Shown here one piece after another: positions 15,811 to 62,015 of a stretch of 64,000 nt of DNA. The notes beneath the pieces are model-generated. The model was given only the letters and a program-made list of their open reading frames with translations, was not told the DNA's origin and searched no databases. The position numbers were made by a program, and so were the translations under genes. Position 1 is the first letter of the stretch, and every line of letters starts with the position of its first letter. Source of the stretch: a virus; the IMG/VR virus record IMGVR_UViG_3300035390_000014, positions 62,001 to 126,000 of that record. The stretch is one strand, 5' to 3'.

Positions 15811-17853
15811 ATGAATTATGAAGATTTAAAGTGGATTAACCAGTCATTGTATTCATACAAAGACAAACAGTTTGACTCGAATGGATACTTAGATATTTCA
15901 ATAAACCTTAACACAGAAGATGACATAAACTTCAGTCAACCTAAACTAGTTTTTAATCTAGATAACTTAGGACAGAGAAGAAATGTTAGATTATCATATT
16001 CAAATGTATTAGATTTATTAATGTCTTTTAATGTAGCAATGAAAAATAAAACAGAAGTATATGCAAATCCTCAACAAGGTGACATAACAAAAAGATATAA
16101 TAAAAATAAAGATTTTACCTTTGAATTTAGAGCTTTAAATTCACAACCTTTAGTGGTAATGAAAATTAAACATAATGATTCAGATGAAGGTAAAATAATT
16201 TTTCCATTAGAACCTGAGTTTATTACTATAGGTAAACTACTAAGAATATTTGAGATAGAATATTCAAATTTTGCAATAAATTTGCCTAATAGATATCTTA
16301 CTAGTCTTAGTGCCAATAGACAATTAGAAATGGTTAATTTACTTAGGGCATTACCTAGTCAATTAGTTCCTATTCAAAATGAACAATACCCAGATAGAAG
16401 AGAAGAGATAGAACCATCAATCAATTCAGCTAGCTCCACAGATATAAAATATACAGGTACGCGCTGTGCTAAGTGTGGAGAAGATCAGTTTGATACTCCA
16501 AGTGGGATAACTTGCAAGAATGGTCATGGTGGAGCAGATAGTATAGATGATGCTGCACAAGCAAATGAGTTTGAACAATTTGCTTTAGAAGAGGAGCCAA
16601 AAGTTCGTATTCCTGAGTTAGAAAGTGATGCTTTAGAACCAAGAGAAGCTATATCACAAGAGTATAAGAGTCCGTTTATTGAGCGTACATTGAAGAATAA
16701 TATCCTTAATCTACAAGAGATGTTATACGCGTTATTTACGAACCCTAACCCTTTAAGAACCATTATGGACACGATCAATGAGGGTCAAGGTTATACATTT
16801 TTACCTGGTGTAACTGAAAAAGATTTGAAGTCTATATTGTATATTTCTAATTTATATTTTAAGATGAATTTTCATAGTTATATTAAAAATCAAACTGGAT
16901 TCCCAAGTGCTATCCCTGTTGTTAAATATTTTGGTAATGATGAAGATAGAGATACGATTGAATTGAGTTATGACTTAATGATGATTAGTGCATATCTAAA
17001 ATTGTATAGAAATAGAATGGAATCTATTAACTCTGATCCTTACACTAATGGAGCATTAACACATTTCTCTTTTAGATGTTTTCTTGATGTATCAACATAT
17101 AGTTATTTAAATGGTAAAAATCCAGAAGCTATTAAAAATATAGTAGTATCAAGATTTAAATATTTTAGAGAAACTGGTTTCTTTGATAATTTTGATAAAA
17201 ATTTAGTTGGTGAAAATCAAAAACCAATCTATGAAAATGAAATTGGTGAGTTTGTTGATAAGGTATTTGATAATGTAGTTGAATCAGAAGATATTAACAT
17301 TAGACACTTTAATGCTTATGATGCAACGTCTGTGAAATTACCTCCTGATAATAATTTTAATTTAGAACAAATTACAAATGAAATAGTTAAATATGAGATA
17401 AAAAGTTTGTTTGGTCAAAGAATAGAAGATTTGTCAAATGATGAAGAAATTATTCTTTTATTTAATAAAAAGACTAGAAAAAAAATAAAACCAACTGACC
17501 ATAGACCAGAAAAAAGAAAAGTTGAAACTCATGTTTTAAGATATGTCAAATTGAAAGCTAATGAATTATCAGAAGCTAATAGACAACCTTTTATTGATTA
17601 TGTTGAAGTAATGGAAGGAGAATATAACTTTTTTAATGATCAATTTAAAATGGAAGAATTACCTGAAGTTATATTGCAAACAATTTATACATGGAATAGT
17701 TATATTCTTGAACATATGAAATATACAGATTTTGTATTAAAAGTTGAAGAATGTATAACCAAAGATTTAATTATTTCAAAGATTAAAGAATTATCTGATG
17801 AACCAGTTGAAGATGTTGGTTGGGTTGATGCACTAAGCGAAATAGAATTATAA
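15811..17853 (+). CDS. Large hypothetical protein with zinc ribbon
   Basis: A 680-aa protein, not recognised. The N-terminal 200 residues are beta-rich. A flexible region holds a zinc ribbon (TRCAKCGEDQFDTPSGITCKNGHGG, about 214-238) and an acidic stretch. The C-terminal 400 residues are alpha-helical. AAAGGAA precedes the ATG. Being first in a run of long genes with unknown folds, it may be a virion or DNA-transaction protein; neither is shown by sequence. Confidence 0.5.
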   Translation: MNYEDLKWINQSLYSYKDKQFDSNGYLDISINLNTEDDINFSQPKLVFNLDNLGQRRNVRLSYSNVLDLLMSFNVAMKNKTEVYANPQQGDITKRYNKNKDFTFEFRALNSQPLVVMKIKHNDSDEGKIIFPLEPEFITIGKLLRIFEIEYSNFAINLPNRYLTSLSANRQLEMVNLLRALPSQLVPIQNEQYPDRREEIEPSINSASSTDIKYTGTRCAKCGEDQFDTPSGITCKNGHGGADSIDDAAQANEFEQFALEEEPKVRIPELESDALEPREAISQEYKSPFIERTLKNNILNLQEMLYALFTNPNPLRTIMDTINEGQGYTFLPGVTEKDLKSILYISNLYFKMNFHSYIKNQTGFPSAIPVVKYFGNDEDRDTIELSYDLMMISAYLKLYRNRMESINSDPYTNGALTHFSFRCFLDVSTYSYLNGKNPEAIKNIVVSRFKYFRETGFFDNFDKNLVGENQKPIYENEIGEFVDKVFDNVVESEDINIRHFNAYDATSVKLPPDNNFNLEQITNEIVKYEIKSLFGQRIEDLSNDEEIILLFNKKTRKKIKPTDHRPEKRKVETHVLRYVKLKANELSEANRQPFIDYVEVMEGEYNFFNDQFKMEELPEVILQTIYTWNSYILEHMKYTDFVLKVEECITKDLIISKIKELSDEPVEDVGWVDALSEIEL

Positions 17854-23503: not shown

Positions 23504-24332
23504 ATTAGGTATAACCAAAAAATGTATAGAAGCTCTATTACGACATTCAACTATACCACATCAAATTTATATATATGATAATTTAACAGATTATAAACTA
23601 GAAAATCATTTTGCTTTCTATCATGAATTATTAAAAAAGAAATTAATCCATCAAGTAACATTTAATACAAATGAGTCTTGTTATGGTGCATTTTCTAAAG
23701 CTATATCATTAAATCAATTTGGGTTAAATCATGAGAATGATCCTGAAAAAGATAAATGCGAAATGTTAGTTACTCTTGATAATGATGTAATTGTAATGCC
23801 TGGATGGGATAAAATTTTAAGAGATTCATTTATACATATAAACCAATATAAAATTAAAAATATTTATGTTATAGGACAATATTTAGGTGGTGCTATAAAA
23901 TATGGACAATGGTTAGATAAAGATATAGCTGGTTATAAAGCTTATCATGGAAAATTAGGTGGTAGTTGTTTATGGGCTTCTAAAACTGATTTTTATGATA
24001 AAGTTGGTTTTTTGGATCCAAAACCTTTAGTTGGTTTTAATAAAAAACATGATCAACATTATTGGACCCAAATGGAAACAATAACAAATGGTGGTCCATA
24101 TATTTTAGGATTAGATGCTCCTTTATTTTTATATGGTGGACATATTGCAGGTAGTGTTTGTAATGTAATTGGATTTGGTAATAATGATGCTAAATTAAAG
24201 AAAATTCAATATAGAGAAAACGATGAAAAAATTAAATCTAAATCATTTTCAGAATTTTATGAAATACTTTATAAAGAATATGAACAAACCTTAAAAGATA
24301 AAGTAATTAAAAAAATGAGAGGTGGTATATGA
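23472..24332 (+). CDS. GT2-like glycosyltransferase
   Basis: A 286-aa GT-A fold transferase: IAITVRNRLGITKKCIEALLRHSTIPHQIYIYDN at the start and a metal-binding MLVTLDNDVIVMPGWD motif (Asp-x-Asp, about 100-106), followed by GKLGGSCLWASKTDFYDKVGFLD typical of GT2 acceptor loops. GAGGT precedes the ATG. Sugar and acceptor unknown; neighbours suggest surface glycan or virion decoration. Confidence 0.72.
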   Translation: MIKIAITVRNRLGITKKCIEALLRHSTIPHQIYIYDNLTDYKLENHFAFYHELLKKKLIHQVTFNTNESCYGAFSKAISLNQFGLNHENDPEKDKCEMLVTLDNDVIVMPGWDKILRDSFIHINQYKIKNIYVIGQYLGGAIKYGQWLDKDIAGYKAYHGKLGGSCLWASKTDFYDKVGFLDPKPLVGFNKKHDQHYWTQMETITNGGPYILGLDAPLFLYGGHIAGSVCNVIGFGNNDAKLKKIQYRENDEKIKSKSFSEFYEILYKEYEQTLKDKVIKKMRGGI

Positions 24333-28910: not shown

Positions 28911-30503
28911 ATGATGGTAAAAAAAATATCTTTTATAAAACTTATTAGATTATGGGGTATTATTTTTATAAGTTCACTTGTTGGTATTATTATTAGTATT
29001 GACATTATTATTACCTATAATGATTTTAATATTCGTATGGATACATTACGTACAAATTATATTAAACAACAAAAAAAAGATGTTAAACGTGAAGTTAATC
29101 GAGTTGTTGAGATGATTAGTTGTGAAAGAATGCAAGATAAAAATGATGAACATACAAAAAGAAGATGGTTAGAAAGAATTAATTATATACGTTTCGGAAA
29201 AAATGATAATGGATATTTATTCGCAGGATCGTGGGATGGAATTAGTCTTGCCCATGGAGATATACCCGAACTAATTGGTAAAGATATTTTAGATTTTACT
29301 GACAGTAAAGGCAATAAAACATCACAACTACTAATAGCTACTTCAAAAATTGAAGGTGGAGGATTTGTTCCTTTTTGGTGGATAAAACCAGATACAGGAA
29401 TAGAAAGTTCTAAGATTACATATGTTGAAGGAATACCAGACTGGGAAATGCTTATTGCTGCAGGAATTTATGATGATGATATAGAGCATGATATAACAAT
29501 TTTACATAATACATTAAATGAACAAATGATATCAAAAATTGGTGTTTTAATTATATTTATTATAATTACATTTTGTGTATTTATATTTCTATTTAATTTT
29601 TTAAGTGGTAAACTAAAAAAAGATTTTAATTTATTTATTTCATTTTTTAAAAATGCAGCTTTATCTGATAAAAAAATTGATAATAAATTTATTAACTATA
29701 TAGAGCTTGAACAAGTATCAGAATATATAAATCAGATGATACAAGATAAATCAGATGTTCAACAAACTATATCAGACGAAAGATTGAAAACTGAAAGACG
29801 TTTAGAACAATCAAGAAAAATGGAATCAATTGGAACATTAACGTCTGGTATTGCTCATGATTTTAATAATATTCTTTTTATAATAAAAGGTAATATTGAA
29901 TTATTGATGATGACTGATAAAAATGAAAAGTTTGATATAATAATAAAAGCTAGTAATCGAGCTATAAAATTAATTGAACAAATTACATCATTTAGTAGAC
30001 ATGATGATGTAGAATTAAAAGATGTTAATATAAAACCAATAATAGTAGAAAGTATTAATTTAAGCAAATCATCAATTTCAGAAAATACAAGCATTATAAG
30101 TGATATAAAAGATGGAAATTATATAGTTAAAACTGATGAAATAAAAATTGGACAAGTGGTTTTGAATTTAATAACAAATGCCTGTCATGCTGTTGAAGAT
30201 ATTGAAGGTAAAATTTTAATTAGTTTGAAAAATATAAATATTCATAATGGTGATTTAATTAAGAAAAATTTACCAAAAGGAGACTACGCTCAATTAAAAA
30301 TTACTGATAATGGGTGTGGGATTGATCCCGAAAATTTAGATAAAATATTTGATCCTTACTTTACTACAAAAGATATATCTAAAGGTACTGGATTAGGATT
30401 ATCTATTGTATATGGAATTATTAAAGAATCTAAAGGTTTTATTAATGTACAAAGTGAATTGAATATTGGAACTACTTTTGATATTTTTATCCCACTTGTT
30501 TAA
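28911..30503 (+). CDS. Membrane sensor histidine kinase with Cache domain
   Basis: A complete 530-aa two-component kinase. TM1 about residues 10-33. A periplasmic single-Cache-like domain (GYLFAGSWDGISLAHGDIPELIGKDILDF...WEMLIAAGIYDDDIE) and TM2 about 205-229 follow. The HisKA has GIAHDFNNILFIIKGNIELLM (His about 320), and the HATPase has NLITNACHAVED, ITDNGCGIDPEN and GTGLGLSIVYGI. No response regulator or HAMP is seen here. Base usage matches the phage, so it is not a very recent gain. It would act in the host membrane and phosphorylate host regulators. Confidence 0.85.
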   Translation: MMVKKISFIKLIRLWGIIFISSLVGIIISIDIIITYNDFNIRMDTLRTNYIKQQKKDVKREVNRVVEMISCERMQDKNDEHTKRRWLERINYIRFGKNDNGYLFAGSWDGISLAHGDIPELIGKDILDFTDSKGNKTSQLLIATSKIEGGGFVPFWWIKPDTGIESSKITYVEGIPDWEMLIAAGIYDDDIEHDITILHNTLNEQMISKIGVLIIFIIITFCVFIFLFNFLSGKLKKDFNLFISFFKNAALSDKKIDNKFINYIELEQVSEYINQMIQDKSDVQQTISDERLKTERRLEQSRKMESIGTLTSGIAHDFNNILFIIKGNIELLMMTDKNEKFDIIIKASNRAIKLIEQITSFSRHDDVELKDVNIKPIIVESINLSKSSISENTSIISDIKDGNYIVKTDEIKIGQVVLNLITNACHAVEDIEGKILISLKNINIHNGDLIKKNLPKGDYAQLKITDNGCGIDPENLDKIFDPYFTTKDISKGTGLGLSIVYGIIKESKGFINVQSELNIGTTFDIFIPLV

Positions 30504-47074: not shown

Positions 47075-47464
47075 GGGGATGAAATGGTATCGCTATAGGT
47101 AGGAATTTTATACTGCGCTTCGTGAATGATTGAGTCACGTTAAAATTGATCATGTAAATACAACTGCAGACAATTTCGCAGATGATTACGCACTAGCAAT
47201 AGCAGCGTAATTCGTTCTAGTTAGTTTATATCTTCGGATTAATATAGGGCGTCGACTTAGAAGATTAGAATTATATTGGTTGGACATAAGATAATTCCAT
47301 GTGACTTTATAATTTGAAACTACTACAGAAATTTATCCTTCAACAATGTTGTTTTGTCAATTCCACATATAGTGATTTGTTGAAGTATTAAAAATTGACT
47401 ATAAGCGTAGATGTATTCTTGGAATATACTATATACTCGAGTTCGACTCTCGACATCTCCACCA
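47075..47464 (+). ncRNA. ssrA: Transfer-messenger RNA (tmRNA)
   Basis: 5' GGGGATG pairs with 3' CATCTCC, followed by A-CCA; the T-arm TCGAG-TTCGACT-CTCGA is intact. The central reading frame starts at about GTA 47154 and ends at TAA 47208-47210, giving tag VNTTADNFADDYALAIAA. It ends in a hydrophobic Ala-rich degron like the bacterial ALAA. Downstream T/A-rich stem pieces fit pseudoknots. It would rescue stalled ribosomes with host SmpB; no smpB is seen here. The resume codon is inferred. Confidence 0.9.
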
Positions 47465-49177: not shown

Positions 49178-49520
49178 ATGTGTAGTTTGTAGAACTGAAT
49201 TTGATCACGCTGAACTTGATGGGGCACGTGGTTGCCCGGTATGTGGTTATCAAGGACTTACTATGCTAACTAATGGAGATGTAGCTGTAAATATTAATTG
49301 GTTTGAACTTAGGTTGATATGTATGTGGGCTGAATCTTTAGCTTTACAAGTCGGTGATTCCCATAGTCTCAATGCTTTTTATTCAGTAGTTAATGAATTA
49401 AAGAAACAAATACCAGATTCTGGTAAAATAACAATGTTTGATAAAGCACCTGATCTCACTTGTGATTCAGATTATAATATAGATGATTTAGTAGTTCCGG
49501 ATGGGACGATATTCAATTGA
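49164..49520 (+). CDS. Zinc-ribbon hypothetical protein
   Basis: About 118 aa: RCVVCRTEFDHAELDGARGCPVCGYQG (rubredoxin-like CxxC pair), then a helical region (FELRLICMWAESLALQ...AFYSVVNELKKQIP) as in small phage proteins. ATG 49164 preceded by GGAGAA; overlaps HldE start. Confidence 0.55.
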   Translation: MKPIRCVVCRTEFDHAELDGARGCPVCGYQGLTMLTNGDVAVNINWFELRLICMWAESLALQVGDSHSLNAFYSVVNELKKQIPDSGKITMFDKAPDLTCDSDYNIDDLVVPDGTIFN

Positions 49521-50905
49521 AGACTAATAATGTTTTAGTGATAGGTGATATAATCCTTGATAAATATATCAAAGGTTCAGTATCCCGCATTTCACCAGAA
49601 GCTCCTGTTCCTATTATTAAAATAGATGATGAACATTACTCATTGGGTGGAGCTGCTAACGTAGCTAATAATTTATCCTCGTTAGGATGCAGTGTTAGTA
49701 TCATTGGTATCATTGGTCTTGATTCCGACGGAAATAAATTAAAACAATTATTTAAAGAAACTAATATTCATTGCTATTTTAATTATAATAAGAATTATAA
49801 AACAACATCTAAGACCAGAATAATTGGTAATAATCAACAGGTAGCAAGACTTGATTATAATGATAATAGTAAACCAGAAGAAATTAGTATTTTTACAATA
49901 GAGCAAACAATTAAAGATGTAATAGATCCATATGATATTGTTGTTATATCTGATTATGATAAAGGAGTTTGTACGAATAGAATATGTCGAACAATAATTC
50001 ATTTATGTAATCAAAAAAATATTCCAGTTATCGTTGATCCAAAGGGAACTGATTGGGATAAATATAGAAAAGCATATATGATAACTCCTAATCTAAAAGA
50101 AACATCTGAGTTAATTGGTAATGAAATTAAAAATACTAATATACAGATTAATGCTAAATGTAGAAATTTAAATGATCAAGTTAGATCTCAATACTTATTA
50201 ATAACAAGATCAGATAAAGGAATGTCTTTAGTTGATGAAGCTGGTATTATTCATATACCATCTAAATCTAAAGAAGTCTTTGATGTTACTGGTGCTGGTG
50301 ATACTGTTATAGCAACTATTGCAGCATTTATTAATAGAATGAAAATAATTGATGTTATTAATTTAGCTAATAAAGCGGCTGGAATAGCAGTATCAAAAAC
50401 AGGAACATCAACAGTAACACAAGATGAATTGAATAATGATCCTATTAGTAATAAGATAATGACTGTAGATTCTTTAATGAAACATGTTAAATTATGGAAA
50501 CAAAAAGAAGAGTCTATCGTATTTACTAATGGTTGTTACGATCTATTTCATAAAGGTCATGCTCATTCAATACATAAAGCATCTGAACTTGGTAATCGCT
50601 TAATAGTTGCTATTAATTCAGATGAATCAGTTCATAGAATTAAAGGTGATAATAGACCATTAAACAATGAATATGATAGAGCATTTGTTATAGCATCTAT
50701 TAATAATGTTGATGCAGTAATTATATTTAATGAGGTTACACCAGATAACATATTACAATTAATCAGACCCAGTGTATTAGTTAAGGGTGGGGATTATATG
50801 CTTCATGAGATTGTAGGAAGAGAATATGCGGATAGAGTTGAAGTTATTAATTATTTACATGGTTATTCAACTACTAAGATGGTTAAAAAAATAGAAGGTA
50901 AATAA
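49517..50905 (+). CDS. hldE: HldE: bifunctional heptose-phosphate kinase / adenylyltransferase
   Basis: A 462-aa enzyme of ADP-heptose synthesis. The N-terminal PfkB kinase domain has VLVIGDIILDKYIKGSVSRISPEAPVPIIK, LGGAANVANNLSSLG and the catalytic DVTGAGDTVIATI (about 257-269). The C-terminal nucleotidyltransferase domain has IVFTNGCYDLFHKGHAHSIHKAS (about 335-355), VAINSDESV and LVKGGDY. Full length as in bacteria. The TTG start overlaps the preceding stop. It would feed heptose to the GT9 enzyme at 22077; GmhA and GmhB are not recognised, so host steps are needed. Confidence 0.88.
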   Translation: MKTNNVLVIGDIILDKYIKGSVSRISPEAPVPIIKIDDEHYSLGGAANVANNLSSLGCSVSIIGIIGLDSDGNKLKQLFKETNIHCYFNYNKNYKTTSKTRIIGNNQQVARLDYNDNSKPEEISIFTIEQTIKDVIDPYDIVVISDYDKGVCTNRICRTIIHLCNQKNIPVIVDPKGTDWDKYRKAYMITPNLKETSELIGNEIKNTNIQINAKCRNLNDQVRSQYLLITRSDKGMSLVDEAGIIHIPSKSKEVFDVTGAGDTVIATIAAFINRMKIIDVINLANKAAGIAVSKTGTSTVTQDELNNDPISNKIMTVDSLMKHVKLWKQKEESIVFTNGCYDLFHKGHAHSIHKASELGNRLIVAINSDESVHRIKGDNRPLNNEYDRAFVIASINNVDAVIIFNEVTPDNILQLIRPSVLVKGGDYMLHEIVGREYADRVEVINYLHGYSTTKMVKKIEGK

Positions 50906-52116: not shown

Positions 52117-52351
52117 ACAGGTTTGGAAATGTGATTATTGTAGTAAGACTGATGAATCTCATGATGTTATAGTTTCTCATGAATTTAAATGTTCATTTAA
52201 TCCAAAAAATAAATATTGTTGGACCTGTTCTAATCATATAGGTGATGGTTTTTGGATTTATGGTGAAAGTTATACATGTGCTATAAATTTAAATAAAGAT
52301 GATGGTGAAGAAGAAGGTGGCTGTAAAGGGTGGACAAATGAAACCACGTAA
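52109..52351 (+). CDS. Zinc-finger-like hypothetical protein
   Basis: About 80 aa: VWKCDYCSKTDESHDVIVSHEFKCSF...YCWTCSNHIGDGFWI...CAINL, several CxxC pairs. Begins within the DUF6899 gene and overlaps the release-factor-like gene. Function unknown. Confidence 0.5.
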   Translation: MAKQVWKCDYCSKTDESHDVIVSHEFKCSFNPKNKYCWTCSNHIGDGFWIYGESYTCAINLNKDDGEEEGGCKGWTNETT

Positions 52352-52691
52352 ACTATTATTCTCAGTTGGTAAAAAAGACTTTATAATCCAGACATTTAAA
52401 GCTGGAGGTAAAGGTGGCCAACATCAAAATAAAACAGATTCAGCAGTTCGTATAATTCATCCGGAGTCAGGAGCAGTTGGAGTTAGTCGAAATGATAGAA
52501 GTCAATTTAAAAATAAAAAAATAGCATTTGAAAGATTAACAAAAACAATAAAATTTAAATTATGGATTACTAAACGAGTTAATGAAATTGATGTTGGTAA
52601 AACAATTGAACAACAAGTCGAAGAAGATATGAAACCTCATAATTTAAAAGTTGAAGTTAAAGATGAGAATGGAAAATGGTCAATTGAATAA
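52338..52691 (+). CDS. GGQ release-factor-like protein (ArfB/RF domain)
   Basis: A 117-aa protein with the peptidyl-tRNA hydrolysis loop AGGKGGQHQNKTDSAVRIIHPESGAVGVSRNDRSQ (GGQ at about 26-28). It lacks the codon-recognition domains of RF1/RF2, so it resembles ribosome-rescue hydrolases such as ArfB or phage RF-like proteins. A Lys-rich tail like that of ArfB is not evident; the C-terminus is VEVKDENGKWSIE. ATG at 52338 has GGGTGGAC upstream. It may act beside the tmRNA at 47075. Confidence 0.8.
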   Translation: MKPRKLLFSVGKKDFIIQTFKAGGKGGQHQNKTDSAVRIIHPESGAVGVSRNDRSQFKNKKIAFERLTKTIKFKLWITKRVNEIDVGKTIEQQVEEDMKPHNLKVEVKDENGKWSIE

Positions 52692-53803: not shown

Positions 53804-54568
53804 ATGATTTGTGAATATTGTAAAGAAGAGCATGATGGTGAATATGGATCTGGTAGATTTTGTAACTCTAAATGTGCGAGAGGATTTTCTACTAAAGCTA
53901 AAAGAAAAGATATAAATAAAAATCTTTCTGAAAAAATGAAAGGGTATAAAACTATACCTGGTGGAATGATTAAACTTTGTGATTATGGTTGTGGAAAAGA
54001 AGCGAAATTTGAAATGACTAATGGAAATTGGTGTTGTGAAAACCATTATTCTAAATGTCCATCTATTATTAAAAAGAATTCAATAGCTTTAAAATCTGCT
54101 TATAAAAGTGGTAGAAAATCAAAATTTATTATGCCACAAGAAGCTTTAGATAGATCTTTAGAAACAAGAAAAAATAATCTATGTGAATATTATAATTCTA
54201 TACCATTTGAAAAGAAACCTGATGCTGAAAGACGAAGAATTATTTTAAATGAACAAGATGAAAAATGTTTGATTTGTGGCATTAAGGATTGGAATAATAA
54301 ATCTTTAGTATTACATCTTGATCATATTGATGGTAATAATCAAAATAATAAAAGAGAAAATTTAAGAATTATTTGTCCGAATTGTCATAGTCAAACAGAT
54401 ACATATTGTAGAGGAAAACCAAAAAATATATCAGATAAAAAATTATCTAAATTACTTATAAAAAATAATTTTAATTTTTGTAAAACATTAAATGAAGTAG
54501 ATTTAGTTCCTGGTGGTTATAACTGGGAACGAATTACAAAATTAGCGAATAAGATTATGCCCGCGTAG
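53804..54568 (+). CDS. HNH homing endonuclease ending inside a tRNA gene
   Basis: A 254-aa protein. An N-terminal ICEYCKEEHDGEYGSGRFCNSKCARGF finger precedes the CDYGCGKEAKFEMTNGNWCCENHYSKCP module (about 59-86). The C-terminal HNH core is CLICGIKDWNNKSLVLHLDHIDGNNQNNKRENLRIICPNCHSQTDTY. The last codons ATG CCC GCG TAG overlap the first ten bases of tRNA-Leu; the tRNA's conserved U8-A9 supplies the stop codon. Confidence 0.85.
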   Translation: MICEYCKEEHDGEYGSGRFCNSKCARGFSTKAKRKDINKNLSEKMKGYKTIPGGMIKLCDYGCGKEAKFEMTNGNWCCENHYSKCPSIIKKNSIALKSAYKSGRKSKFIMPQEALDRSLETRKNNLCEYYNSIPFEKKPDAERRRIILNEQDEKCLICGIKDWNNKSLVLHLDHIDGNNQNNKRENLRIICPNCHSQTDTYCRGKPKNISDKKLSKLLIKNNFNFCKTLNEVDLVPGGYNWERITKLANKIMPA

Positions 54569-54645
54569 AAGAATTGGTTTATTCAGCAGACTTAGACCCT
54601 GTGCTTTTAATAGGCGTGTGAGTTCGAATCTCACCGTGGGTACCA
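54559..54645 (+). tRNA. tRNA-Leu (TAG)
   Basis: Acceptor GCCCGCG/CGTGGGT with two G-T pairs, anticodon loop CTTAGAC, long variable arm, T-arm GTGAG-TTCGAAT-CTCAC, encoded CCA. The anticodon stem has a mismatch at its inner pair. Confidence 0.75.
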
Positions 54646-54651
54646 TATAAT

Positions 54652-54688
54652 AAAAGCGGTTACTTGTATATTATAAGTAACCGCTTTT
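54652..54688. terminator. Bidirectional rho-independent terminator
   Basis: AAAAGCGGTTACTT / AAGTAACCGCTTTT stem with a short AT loop and T-run, directly after tRNA-Leu; it isolates the riboswitch cassette. Confidence 0.85.
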
Positions 54689-54722
54689 CTTCCATAATTC
54701 CACTCAATTAAAAAATCCCAAT

Positions 54723-54743
54723 CTATATATATTAATATACATA
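54723..54743 (+). promoter_or_regulatory. CTATATATATTAATATACAT box
   Basis: Exact copy of the box at 37801 and 52701. It lies between a terminator and the first riboswitch, so it is the only evident place for the promoter of that leader. Confidence 0.65.
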
Positions 54744-54770
54744 ACACAATAGATTATTACTTATTTTAAT

Positions 54771-54857
54771 CAACGTCCGAAAAGGCACGGGACATAGGAG
54801 CTCCCACGCAAAGTCACAGGTCATATTTATATGATGGCTGGTCTACCGAAGCGTCCT
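54771..54857 (+). ncRNA. GEMM-I-type (cyclic-dinucleotide) riboswitch 1
   Basis: Contains the GEMM-I landmarks in order: GGCACGGGA, CCCACGCAAAGTCACAGGTC, then ATGGCTGGTCTACCGAA, as in c-di-GMP-I aptamers. The P1b hairpin is short (GG-AGCT-CC) and has no visible GNRA tetraloop, so it is a variant. It is followed at once by GGGAGG and the ATG of the lipoprotein gene. Ligand (c-di-GMP, cGAMP or other) cannot be told. Confidence 0.8.
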
Positions 54858-54875
54858 TACTGGGAGGATGTTTTA

Positions 54876-55376
54876 ATGAAACGAATGCTAATTTTATTAG
54901 TGTTTATGATCTTATCAACTGGATGTGCAATAAAACCTGTTTATCAAGTGAATGGCTATCCAGTCCCTAATAATGTCATTAAGGCAAAAACATTTGCTTT
55001 AGATTTAACAATAACTTATAATTTACAAAAAACCTTTAATGTAAAAGAAGGCAAAGAATCATATCAAACTTATGATTTTCTACCTTTGACTGATTCAACA
55101 ATATTTAAAATTAAGGATGATGAAAAATTAATTTTTAATATTGATGTTTTCAATCCATTAAAGAAATACTATAAGTTAGTTCAATATACAACTATAGAAG
55201 GAGGTGGTGGAGATGAAGTAGTATTGTACGAAGGTGAATTAAGCAGAAAACATGTATCTGTACATTTACCATTGATCCCAACCAAGTTGGTTAGTTTTTA
55301 TTATGATGCATGTAGTAAAAACGATGACTTGGTTTTTAGGTCCTTTCAAAATCAGTATATTTTCTCTGAATATTGA
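54876..55376 (+). CDS. Putative lipoprotein under riboswitch control
   Basis: A 166-aa protein: signal peptide MKRMLILLVFMILSTGC with lipobox LSTGC, so it should be lipidated at Cys17 and held in the cell envelope. The mature part is beta-rich (ALDLTITYNLQKTFNVKEG, LIFNIDVFNPLKKYYKLVQYTTIEGGG). The start is the ATG at 54876 after GGGAGG. It may alter the host surface; no family recognised. Confidence 0.7.
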   Translation: MKRMLILLVFMILSTGCAIKPVYQVNGYPVPNNVIKAKTFALDLTITYNLQKTFNVKEGKESYQTYDFLPLTDSTIFKIKDDEKLIFNIDVFNPLKKYYKLVQYTTIEGGGGDEVVLYEGELSRKHVSVHLPLIPTKLVSFYYDACSKNDDLVFRSFQNQYIFSEY

Positions 55377-55396
55377 AGGATGAATTTTTTATACGT

Positions 55397-55490
55397 GAAC
55401 GAACGAAAAAGGCACGGGATCACGTGGTCCCACGCAAAGTCACAGGTCTTTTATAAAGGATAAAAGATGGCTGGTCTACCGAAAACGTTC
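55397..55490 (+). ncRNA. GEMM-I-type (cyclic-dinucleotide) riboswitch 2
   Basis: Same landmark blocks as riboswitch 1 with a different P1b hairpin (GGGATC-ACGT-GGTCCC) and a GAACG/CGTTC closing stem. The following CTAATTAA...TTTAATTAG hairpin (55490-55512) shares the AG of the AGGAG ribosome site for ATG 55523, so ligand binding could switch translation. Confidence 0.82.
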
Positions 55491-55522
55491 TAATTAATTT
55501 TATTTAATTAGGAGTTTTCAAG

Positions 55523-56482
55523 ATGAAAAAAATGTTTAAAAGTTTAGTTATTGGTTTGGCAATTGTTGGTCTGATCGCATCCACAGGTTATGCACGCGGT
55601 GGTTATAATGAAAGCGTTGTAGGCGGCGGCGATATTCAGTTTAACGGTGCTACAATTCCCAATGGAGCTGCTGGCGGTATTTCAGGATCTGGCGGTTTTA
55701 GTGCTGCCCAGTCTGCTGGCGGTGGTTGGGGTCGTGTTGGTGGTGATATTTCCATTGCTGCTGGTGGTGTAACTGATACTACTTCAGGTACATATGTTAA
55801 TAACCACAGAGGTTATACTGAGATTGGTGTTTATAGTCGAAGTGAAAACCTTGCAACCACAAATGGTTTTACCACTATTAATGGTCAGGGTGCTGTAGTA
55901 GCTGAAAGTACTATGATCGGTGGTGCTGCTGAGGGAACATTGAATGGTTCTGTAATTGGGAAATCTCCAAGGTTCTTTACTACTGATGGTGTTAGTGGTG
56001 GAGTTGCTGGTCAGGGTGCTGTAGGTGGATTTGTTGGAGTTTCTGGTCTTGCTCTTGAAGGCGATGTTTCCATGAGAGCTAATCTAGAGTTCTCTGGATC
56101 TTCTTATTCAGATTCTTTTAGATTTGTAGAACGTGATCGCCAAAACGGAACTAAAACAGAAGGTATGGGCACTTATGTTGGAGCCAATACTAATGTTAGA
56201 ACTGATGGTTGGGTAGATCCCAATGGTTTTGTTGAAGGTGGTTTTGTTGCAGCCGGTGGAGCAGCATCTAAAACAGTTCAGAAAAGTGATACTGGATTTG
56301 CCAAAGCTTCTACAGTTGGTACTTATTCAGGTTCAGGTTCTTTAGGTGATAATTATACTGGAAAAGCTAATGGTTATACCAAAACTAGCATTACTCAGTA
56401 TAGAGGTATGACTGGAAGCATCGTTACATCTTCAGCTGGAATGCATGTTGTTTCTACAACATCTCCTGTTCAACATAATTAA
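55523..56482 (+). CDS. Secreted glycine-rich protein under riboswitch control
   Basis: A 319-aa protein: signal peptide MKKMFKSLVIGLAIVGLIASTGYA, then a Gly/Ser/Ala/Thr/Val-rich body with imperfect repeats (AAGGISGSGGFSAAQSAGGG, AGGVTDTTSGTYVNNHRGYTE, GFVAAGGAASKTVQK) suggesting a long beta structure. Codon use is richer in GC than the phage core. It resembles exported bacterial surface or matrix proteins; role unknown. Confidence 0.7.
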   Translation: MKKMFKSLVIGLAIVGLIASTGYARGGYNESVVGGGDIQFNGATIPNGAAGGISGSGGFSAAQSAGGGWGRVGGDISIAAGGVTDTTSGTYVNNHRGYTEIGVYSRSENLATTNGFTTINGQGAVVAESTMIGGAAEGTLNGSVIGKSPRFFTTDGVSGGVAGQGAVGGFVGVSGLALEGDVSMRANLEFSGSSYSDSFRFVERDRQNGTKTEGMGTYVGANTNVRTDGWVDPNGFVEGGFVAAGGAASKTVQKSDTGFAKASTVGTYSGSGSLGDNYTGKANGYTKTSITQYRGMTGSIVTSSAGMHVVSTTSPVQHN

Positions 56483-56503
56483 ATTACCAATTAACTAAAC
56501 ATC

Positions 56504-56533
56504 ATACCCCCAAGCTTAGATAGTTGGGGGTAT
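56504..56533 (+). terminator. Hairpin terminator
   Basis: ATACCCCCAA / TTGGGGGTAT stem after the secreted protein gene; a weak A/T-run follows. Confidence 0.65.
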
Positions 56534-56563
56534 AAAATTTGAATTAAACGTAAGAGAATAAAA

Positions 56564-57406
56564 TTGAAAATTTATAAATTTGCATTACTTAGTATTATGA
56601 GTATGTTGATTATGGTGATGTTCACAGTCCCGTCATTTGCTGGTGCGGATGCGGATGCTGATGCTAAAGCTAAAGCTGGTGCAACATCATCCATTGATTC
56701 TCATGATAATATTACCAATCAACGTGGTTATGCCATTCAGGGTCAGGTACAGTACCCCGGAATGCCCGGATACTTTGGTCCCAATAACAAACCCGGTCAT
56801 CAGTTCATTTCCCTTAATAAATTGTTGATGTATAACACAGCTTGGAACATTAAAGCTGAATACGGTTCTACAACCGGCCAGACAATCAATATAACTCCCC
56901 ATGCCAAAATGGTTACCCCGGAAGAAAGAAGTAAAGTTGTCATCTGCACCAAGGATATCTTTGACAAGACCAAATTTGAAATTGATCTCCTTGCAGTCGG
57001 TGCCATTAATTCAACCCAGAAAAATGTTATTTCTTCTGACTTGTTGGATTATGTTTTAGCAACGGCAGCCAAATATGGCGCCACCCATGTCCAGTTTCTG
57101 GCTGAGGGTACTAACACTGAACTCCAGTCTTCTGGTTGGGGTATTGGTCTTAATTATACCAAAGCTACAGATACATCAGTATCAACTGGCGGCACCGGGT
57201 TCTCAACTGGATGGTCCGGTTATCAGAATCTACCCTGGCAGCAATTCTTCTTTTTGAAGGTTGTTAATCCTGGAGCAGTTGCTTCAATTACACCTGATAT
57301 TGAAAAAGCAGATGTTGTTGAAAACGACGTAATTGTAAAAGATAATACCAAAGTAGATAATGCTGTGAAAGAAGCCTCTACAAAACAGGGTGGAAATCAC
57401 AACTAA
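56564..57406 (+). CDS. Second secreted protein
   Basis: A 280-aa protein with signal peptide MKIYKFALLSIMSMLIMVMFTVPSFA and an unusual mature start GADADADAKAKAGATSS. The body has aromatic/Gly motifs and a C-terminal acidic tail. GC content is clearly higher than the genome around it (CCCGGAATGCCCGG-type runs), a sign of recent transfer from a host. TTG start. It lies after the second riboswitch gene and a terminator, so it may have its own promoter. Confidence 0.7.
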   Translation: MKIYKFALLSIMSMLIMVMFTVPSFAGADADADAKAKAGATSSIDSHDNITNQRGYAIQGQVQYPGMPGYFGPNNKPGHQFISLNKLLMYNTAWNIKAEYGSTTGQTINITPHAKMVTPEERSKVVICTKDIFDKTKFEIDLLAVGAINSTQKNVISSDLLDYVLATAAKYGATHVQFLAEGTNTELQSSGWGIGLNYTKATDTSVSTGGTGFSTGWSGYQNLPWQQFFFLKVVNPGAVASITPDIEKADVVENDVIVKDNTKVDNAVKEASTKQGGNHN

Positions 57407-62000: not shown

Positions 62001-62015
62001 GAACATATTATAAAA
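62001..62015 (+). promoter_or_regulatory. GAACATATTATAAAA promoter-like box
   Basis: TTAGAACATATTATAAAAAGG directly before the endonuclease ATG at 62026; the box merges into the ribosome site. No surrounding inverted repeat here, unlike 47482 and 53760. Confidence 0.6.

Follow-up and report, generated by a model that had tools for sequence, protein, structure and literature searches.

Does a large bacteriophage carry RNA switches that read the second messenger cyclic di-GMP (c-di-GMP) of its host, and which genes would such switches control? The question is raised by a 64,000-nucleotide (nt) stretch (the window) of the IMG/VR virus record IMGVR_UViG_3300035390_000014, representing positions 62001–126000 of this 202,719-base record. 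A first-pass annotation of the window had placed two GEMM-I riboswitches ahead of phage genes for an exported lipoprotein and a Gly-rich exported protein. Both elements prove to be genuine aptamers of the GEMM-I (c-di-GMP-I) type, though in a stripped form; the second passes the cut-off of the respective Rfam family, and the first falls just short of it. They are located on the + strand, with the two genes directly 3' of them.

GEMM-I aptamers without tetraloop and receptor

The elements were evaluated with the Rfam covariance model RF01051 (c-di-GMP-I), which has a cut-off of 35 bits. Copy 2 (matched at 55401–55483) scored above and copy 1 (matched at 54774–54850) below this value, the latter with an E-value of 1.7e-5 over the whole 202,719-base record, in which RF01051 found no match besides the two. 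Their helices (P1, P2, P3) and key residues, numbered as in Vc2 of Vibrio cholerae by mapping of the Vc2 numbers onto the Rfam consensus within this analysis, are as follows:

54773–54854, + strand: GEMM-I-like aptamer 1 (RF01051 31.9 bits, RF03167 alignment, covariation with two sister copies); P1 54773–54775/54852–54854, P2 54789–54792/54802–54805, P3 54812–54844; G20=54784, C44=54807, A47=54810, G83=54837, C92=54846
55397–55490, + strand: GEMM-I-like aptamer 2 (RF01051 39.1 bits); P1 55397–55401/55486–55490, P2 55416–55421/55426–55431, P3 55438–55477; G20=55411, C44=55433, A47=55436, G83=55470, C92=55479

The near identity initially ascribed to the two cores holds for two common blocks, in which 20 of 20 (CCCACGCAAAGTCACAGGTC) and 18 of 18 (GATGGCTGGTCTACCGAA) bases agree, and not for the joining loops between them. 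A third copy of the variant was detected in phage record G029, with 33.7 bits for RF01051 and 89 bits for a model that includes this copy, the latter score therefore not being independent. In Vc2, G20, A47 and C92 contact c-di-GMP, and C44 and G83 form an interhelical pair (PMC4744006, PMC11218506). According to the alignments, all five residues are present in both window copies and in the G029 copy. Across the three copies, 91.3 % of the pair cells of the P1/P2/P3 architecture are standard pairs, as compared to 32–42 % with the partners slid by 1–3 columns, and of 29 pairs, five, all of P3, are altered on both sides. Coming from three sequences, which is few, this covariation provides good but not overwhelming support. 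Copy 1 alone would be marginal; the pair is supported by the pocket, the third copy, the covariation and the hairpins at the ribosome-binding sites described below.

The G029 copy resides at L112:9996–10090 on the − strand, antisense between a structural gene and the terminase gene, and is followed by a weak hairpin at a ribosome-binding site. It represents either an orphan switch or the leader of a very short gene.

The variant shares with Vc2 and Vc1 of V. cholerae (RF01051) the three-helix junction, G20/A47/C92, the C44-G83 pair and the location in the 5' untranslated region of genes for exported or surface proteins, which in the case of Vc1 is gbpA, coding for a colonization factor (PMC4744006). 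In contrast to these, it is encoded by a large phage, and its P2 begins with GG/CC pairs where CC/GG is usual. The apical loop of P2 reads ACGU in copy 2, is of the CAUAGGAG type in copy 1 and UUAG in G029, i.e., none is a GNRA/GYRA tetraloop, and the tetraloop receptor in P3 is gone, with the consensus CUAA and AuG positions deleted in the alignment. A GNRA/GYRA loop on P2 is usual, though perhaps not universal, in GEMM-I. The type II subset of GEMM-I is devoid of the receptor and usually keeps the GYRA loop (PMC11218506), whereas the window variant lacks both. Like members of c-di-GMP-I-GGC (RF03167), the window copies have a short P3, and both align with that family end to end. They are not members of it, since their scores of 34.9 and 30.1 bits fall short of its 59-bit cut-off and they carry A at the A47 position (A54810, A55436) instead of the family's G. 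The aptamers could show how far the GEMM-I fold can shrink, dispensing with the tetraloop-receptor clamp, and still bind c-di-GMP.

Putative switching hairpins and the signal they would read

Control of the exported-protein genes, as originally proposed, is made plausible by a hairpin behind each aptamer:

54848–54874, + strand: expression platform 1, an 11-pair hairpin of −12.4 kcal/mol burying the Shine-Dalgarno sequence GGGAGGA (54862–54868)
55481–55519, + strand: expression platform 2, a 16-pair hairpin of −14.2 kcal/mol burying the Shine-Dalgarno sequence AGGAG (55510–55514)

Compared to dinucleotide shuffles, both hairpins are unusually stable (platform 1, z −3.2, 5 of 1000 shuffles as low; platform 2, z −4.3, 0 of 1000). 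A Shine-Dalgarno sequence as inaccessible as that of copy 2 was observed for only 5 of 209 phage genes. Burial in copy 1 is less remarkable, being equalled by 40 of the 209 genes, though only 12 of the 209 have a start region as stable. Both hairpins take up the 3' strand of P1, and aptamer and hairpin are therefore mutually exclusive. In the free RNA, the hairpin (OFF) form is favoured by 7.7–7.9 kcal/mol in both window copies, according to ViennaRNA energies, which leave out tertiary contacts and ligand. A gap of this size could be closed by tight c-di-GMP binding of the kind seen in Vc2. Because neither hairpin is followed by a long U-tract, transcription attenuation was dismissed for both window copies.

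Aptamer family, conserved pocket, covariation, P1-overlapping hairpins and conserved gene cassette (see below) were established by computation, whereas ligand, switching direction, timing and protein roles are inferred. Both elements probably turn translation on in response to c-di-GMP. In the ligand-free RNA, P1 would lend its 3' strand to the hairpin around the Shine-Dalgarno sequence; c-di-GMP bound at the P1/P2/P3 junction would hold P1, whereupon the hairpin would open and the cistron would be translated. Aptamer 2 begins about 20 nt past the lipoprotein stop codon, so that one mRNA could bear both switches in series. Copy 2 may thus reside within a polycistronic mRNA, a setting in which regulation would sensibly act on translation and not on transcription. 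The lipoprotein and the Gly-rich protein, and perhaps the product of the following gene (ORF C), would then be made only in hosts with high c-di-GMP levels, typically sessile or biofilm cells, and would change the envelope or surface of the host.

The first-pass annotation had also allowed for cyclic GMP-AMP (cGAMP) as ligand, an option disfavoured by the sequence of both copies. GEMM-I RNAs of the cGAMP-sensing class carry A where Vc2 has G20, whereas G is found there in all three variant copies (G54784 and G55411 in the window) as well as in the related aptamer of phage G035 (see below). Moreover, mutation of G20 in Vc2 lowers c-di-GMP binding 30,000-fold (PMC4744006). Sensing of 3',3'-cGAMP or of both cyclic dinucleotides, by which the phage could read a CBASS-type defence or a Geobacter-type signal, is accordingly unlikely, even though cGAMP-sensing GEMM-I variants exist (PMC7266159, with reference to Kellenberger 2015 and Nelson 2015) and the off-consensus architecture does not allow ligand specificity to be read with certainty. 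Many GEMM-I switches, including most of those of Clostridioides difficile, act as OFF switches (PMC7699646). Repression of the cistrons by c-di-GMP, with the exported proteins made in motile cells of low c-di-GMP content, is nevertheless quite improbable here, since P1 competes with, and does not assist, the hairpins over the ribosome-binding sites, and the buried form is favoured in the free RNA of either copy. That the elements are relics, i.e., decayed host-derived aptamers no longer binding anything, would agree with the lost tetraloop and receptor, the copy below the Rfam cut-off and the orphan copy in G029, but is very improbable in view of the compensatory changes in P3, a pocket whose residues are unchanged across three diverged copies, and the independently formed hairpins overlapping P1.

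A cassette of exported proteins in related phages

The genes behind the aptamers are the following:

54876–55376, + strand: lipoprotein, 166 amino acids (MKRMLILLVFMILSTGC); homologues in related phages, predicted β-sandwich
55523–56482, + strand: Gly-rich exported protein with signal peptide, 319 amino acids; homologues in phage records G015 and G019 (E 4e-36)
56564–57406, + strand: exported protein "ORF C", 280 amino acids, TTG start; homologues in five related phage records and 11 IMG/VR loci

The lipoprotein starts at ATG 54876 and not at the in-frame ATG 54831 inside aptamer 1, and with this start the lipobox Cys lines up without exception in 8 homologues. ORF C, the third gene of the first-pass annotation, has no aptamer of its own and is the most widespread member of a cassette ordered amidase, lipoprotein, small exported protein, Gly-rich protein, ORF C and heptose-7-phosphate kinase. 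All three proteins have homologues in related phages, and the cassette is clearest in G015, G035 and G042, a homing-type gene being inserted in some phages. The Gly-rich proteins of G035 and G042 are alike, but differ from that of the window at the sequence level, such that this member was matched there by position. Being shared by related phages, the cassette belongs to the phage and is not a stray host fragment. A gene for heptose synthesis (HldE, 49517–50905) lies about 4 kb from the window cassette. The exported proteins may act in the envelope or at the surface, as suggested by their signal peptides, the lipobox and the heptose genes nearby.

For none of the three proteins did Pfam, PHROGs, NCBIfam or PADLOC return anything better than chance matches, a defence-system search of the proteins gave no match, and the PDB holds none for the profiles of the Gly-rich protein and ORF C. 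The lipoprotein was modelled as a β-sandwich (predicted local distance difference test, pLDDT, 79), for which a structure search returned generic β-sandwiches only (RhoGDI-like, TM score about 0.4) and nothing informative; the predicted fold of ORF C (pLDDT 50) is unusable. Single-sequence viral scans retrieved no homologues of the lipoprotein and ORF C, relatives being reached later via the RNA polymerase gene. One short pattern detected no bacterial homologues of ORF C, which is weak negative evidence.

A further GEMM-I RNA was found in G035 (L109/L111), a 223 kb phage and distant member of the same clade. It is located within the same cassette, between ORF C and the heptose-7-phosphate kinase gene, and has the same pocket residues as the window aptamers. 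Unlike these, it is canonical (61.7 bits), with a GCAA tetraloop, and is followed by a hairpin resembling an intrinsic terminator (AAAAAATGAGTTCGATACTCTTTTTT) before the heptose kinase gene. Altogether, 86 related records and the window record contain four GEMM-I aptamers, three of which reside inside the cassette. With the cassette covering about 2 % of the genome and the window copies counted as one event, the chance of two independent placements in it is about 4 in 10,000 by our own post hoc estimate.

The custom model R1 found no copy besides that of G029 in 50 related records, and weak RF01051 matches in G056 and G059 probably arose by chance within coding sequence. In 2.9 million viral contigs, pattern scans for the variant brought up G029 alone, through a second, looser pattern; those for the GG/CC P2 pattern gave 11 chance matches, none of them scoring in Rfam. 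The exact pattern, the only one applied to them, is absent from 84,980 bacterial and archaeal genomes. Separately, four other IMG/VR contigs (L022, L023, L025, L027) have strong RF01051 matches and one (L024) matches RF03167, all over the Rfam cut-off.

Phage-borne GEMM-I RNAs as such are already known: the riboswitches Cdi1_4 and Cdi1_5 lie in prophages of C. difficile 630 (PMC3649979, PMC7699646), and Cdi1_4 responds to c-di-GMP and controls an antitoxin RNA (PMC7699646). These likewise are duplicate copies carried by phages, but differ in belonging to temperate prophages, in their transcription-terminating platform and in targeting a toxin-antitoxin antisense RNA near a lysis module instead of exported proteins. 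New are the doubly stripped aptamer, its presence in a large phage that encodes an RNA polymerase, the exported nature of the targets and the recurrent association with a single cassette; searches of open-licence papers found no report of this combination. The arrangement suggests that the virus reads a host lifestyle signal via c-di-GMP switches. Tentatively, a clade of large phages bearing RNA polymerase may have repeatedly recruited c-di-GMP riboswitches to gate an exported cassette and to remodel envelope or matrix only in sessile biofilm hosts, employing a GEMM-I subclass without tetraloop and receptor. Proteins and peptides are the known means by which phages sense the state of their host. 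If true, a large phage would tie the outcome of infection to the host's biofilm decision by using RNA to sense a second messenger.

Several observations weigh against the reading as ON switches for c-di-GMP. Copy 1 falls below the Rfam cut-off, and its P1 comprises three Watson-Crick pairs only. Without the GNRA tetraloop/receptor clamp, which in Vc2 holds P2 against P3, affinity may be low, and neither this contact nor the ligand enters the folding energies. The G029 copy precedes merely a reading frame of 19 codons, and its hairpin is weak, with a gap of 2.6 kcal/mol. Finally, most of the related phages bearing the cassette display no GEMM RNA.

The phage record and its clade

Phage-type RNA polymerase β' genes, a UvsX-like recombinase, a DnaB-like helicase and an amidase identify the record as that of a phage, and the window alone harbours twelve tRNAs and one transfer-messenger RNA (tmRNA). 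The RNA polymerase gene has 170 relatives in IMG/VR, and the clade consists of large phages that themselves encode a multisubunit RNA polymerase. Among the relatives found as long records, G029 is the closest (RNA polymerase 83 % identical), and G035 is more remote (β' 56 % identical). The terminase region of the nearest relative has no counterpart in the 202,719-base record, which may therefore be incomplete. No GGDEF or EAL domain was found in this possibly incomplete record, and c-di-GMP would accordingly need to originate from the host. The heptose gene and the lipobox suggest a Gram-negative host.

Further features of the window include the following:

54649–54691, + strand: terminator-like hairpin after tRNA-Leu (54559–54645), inverted repeat of 20 nt, 90 % complementary, setting aptamer 1 apart from the tRNA-Leu gene
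28911–30503, + strand: membrane sensor histidine kinase with Cache, HisKA and HATPase_c domains (Pfam E 1.7e-26, 1.1e-8 and 2.6e-21)
47075–47464, + strand: phage tmRNA with tag ADNFADDYALAIAA, among tRNA genes
52299–52691: peptide release-factor-like gene (Pfam RF-1, E 5.8e-19)

The phage-encoded histidine kinase has no counterpart in the 16 related phage records searched and is possibly a second signal-sensing gene of the same phage. Outside the window, the record encodes further proteins of exported or envelope type, namely a CreA family protein (record positions 16028–16471, − strand), a protein with a prepilin-like N-methylation motif (23513–23830, − strand) and an OmpA-family protein (138169–138717, + strand).
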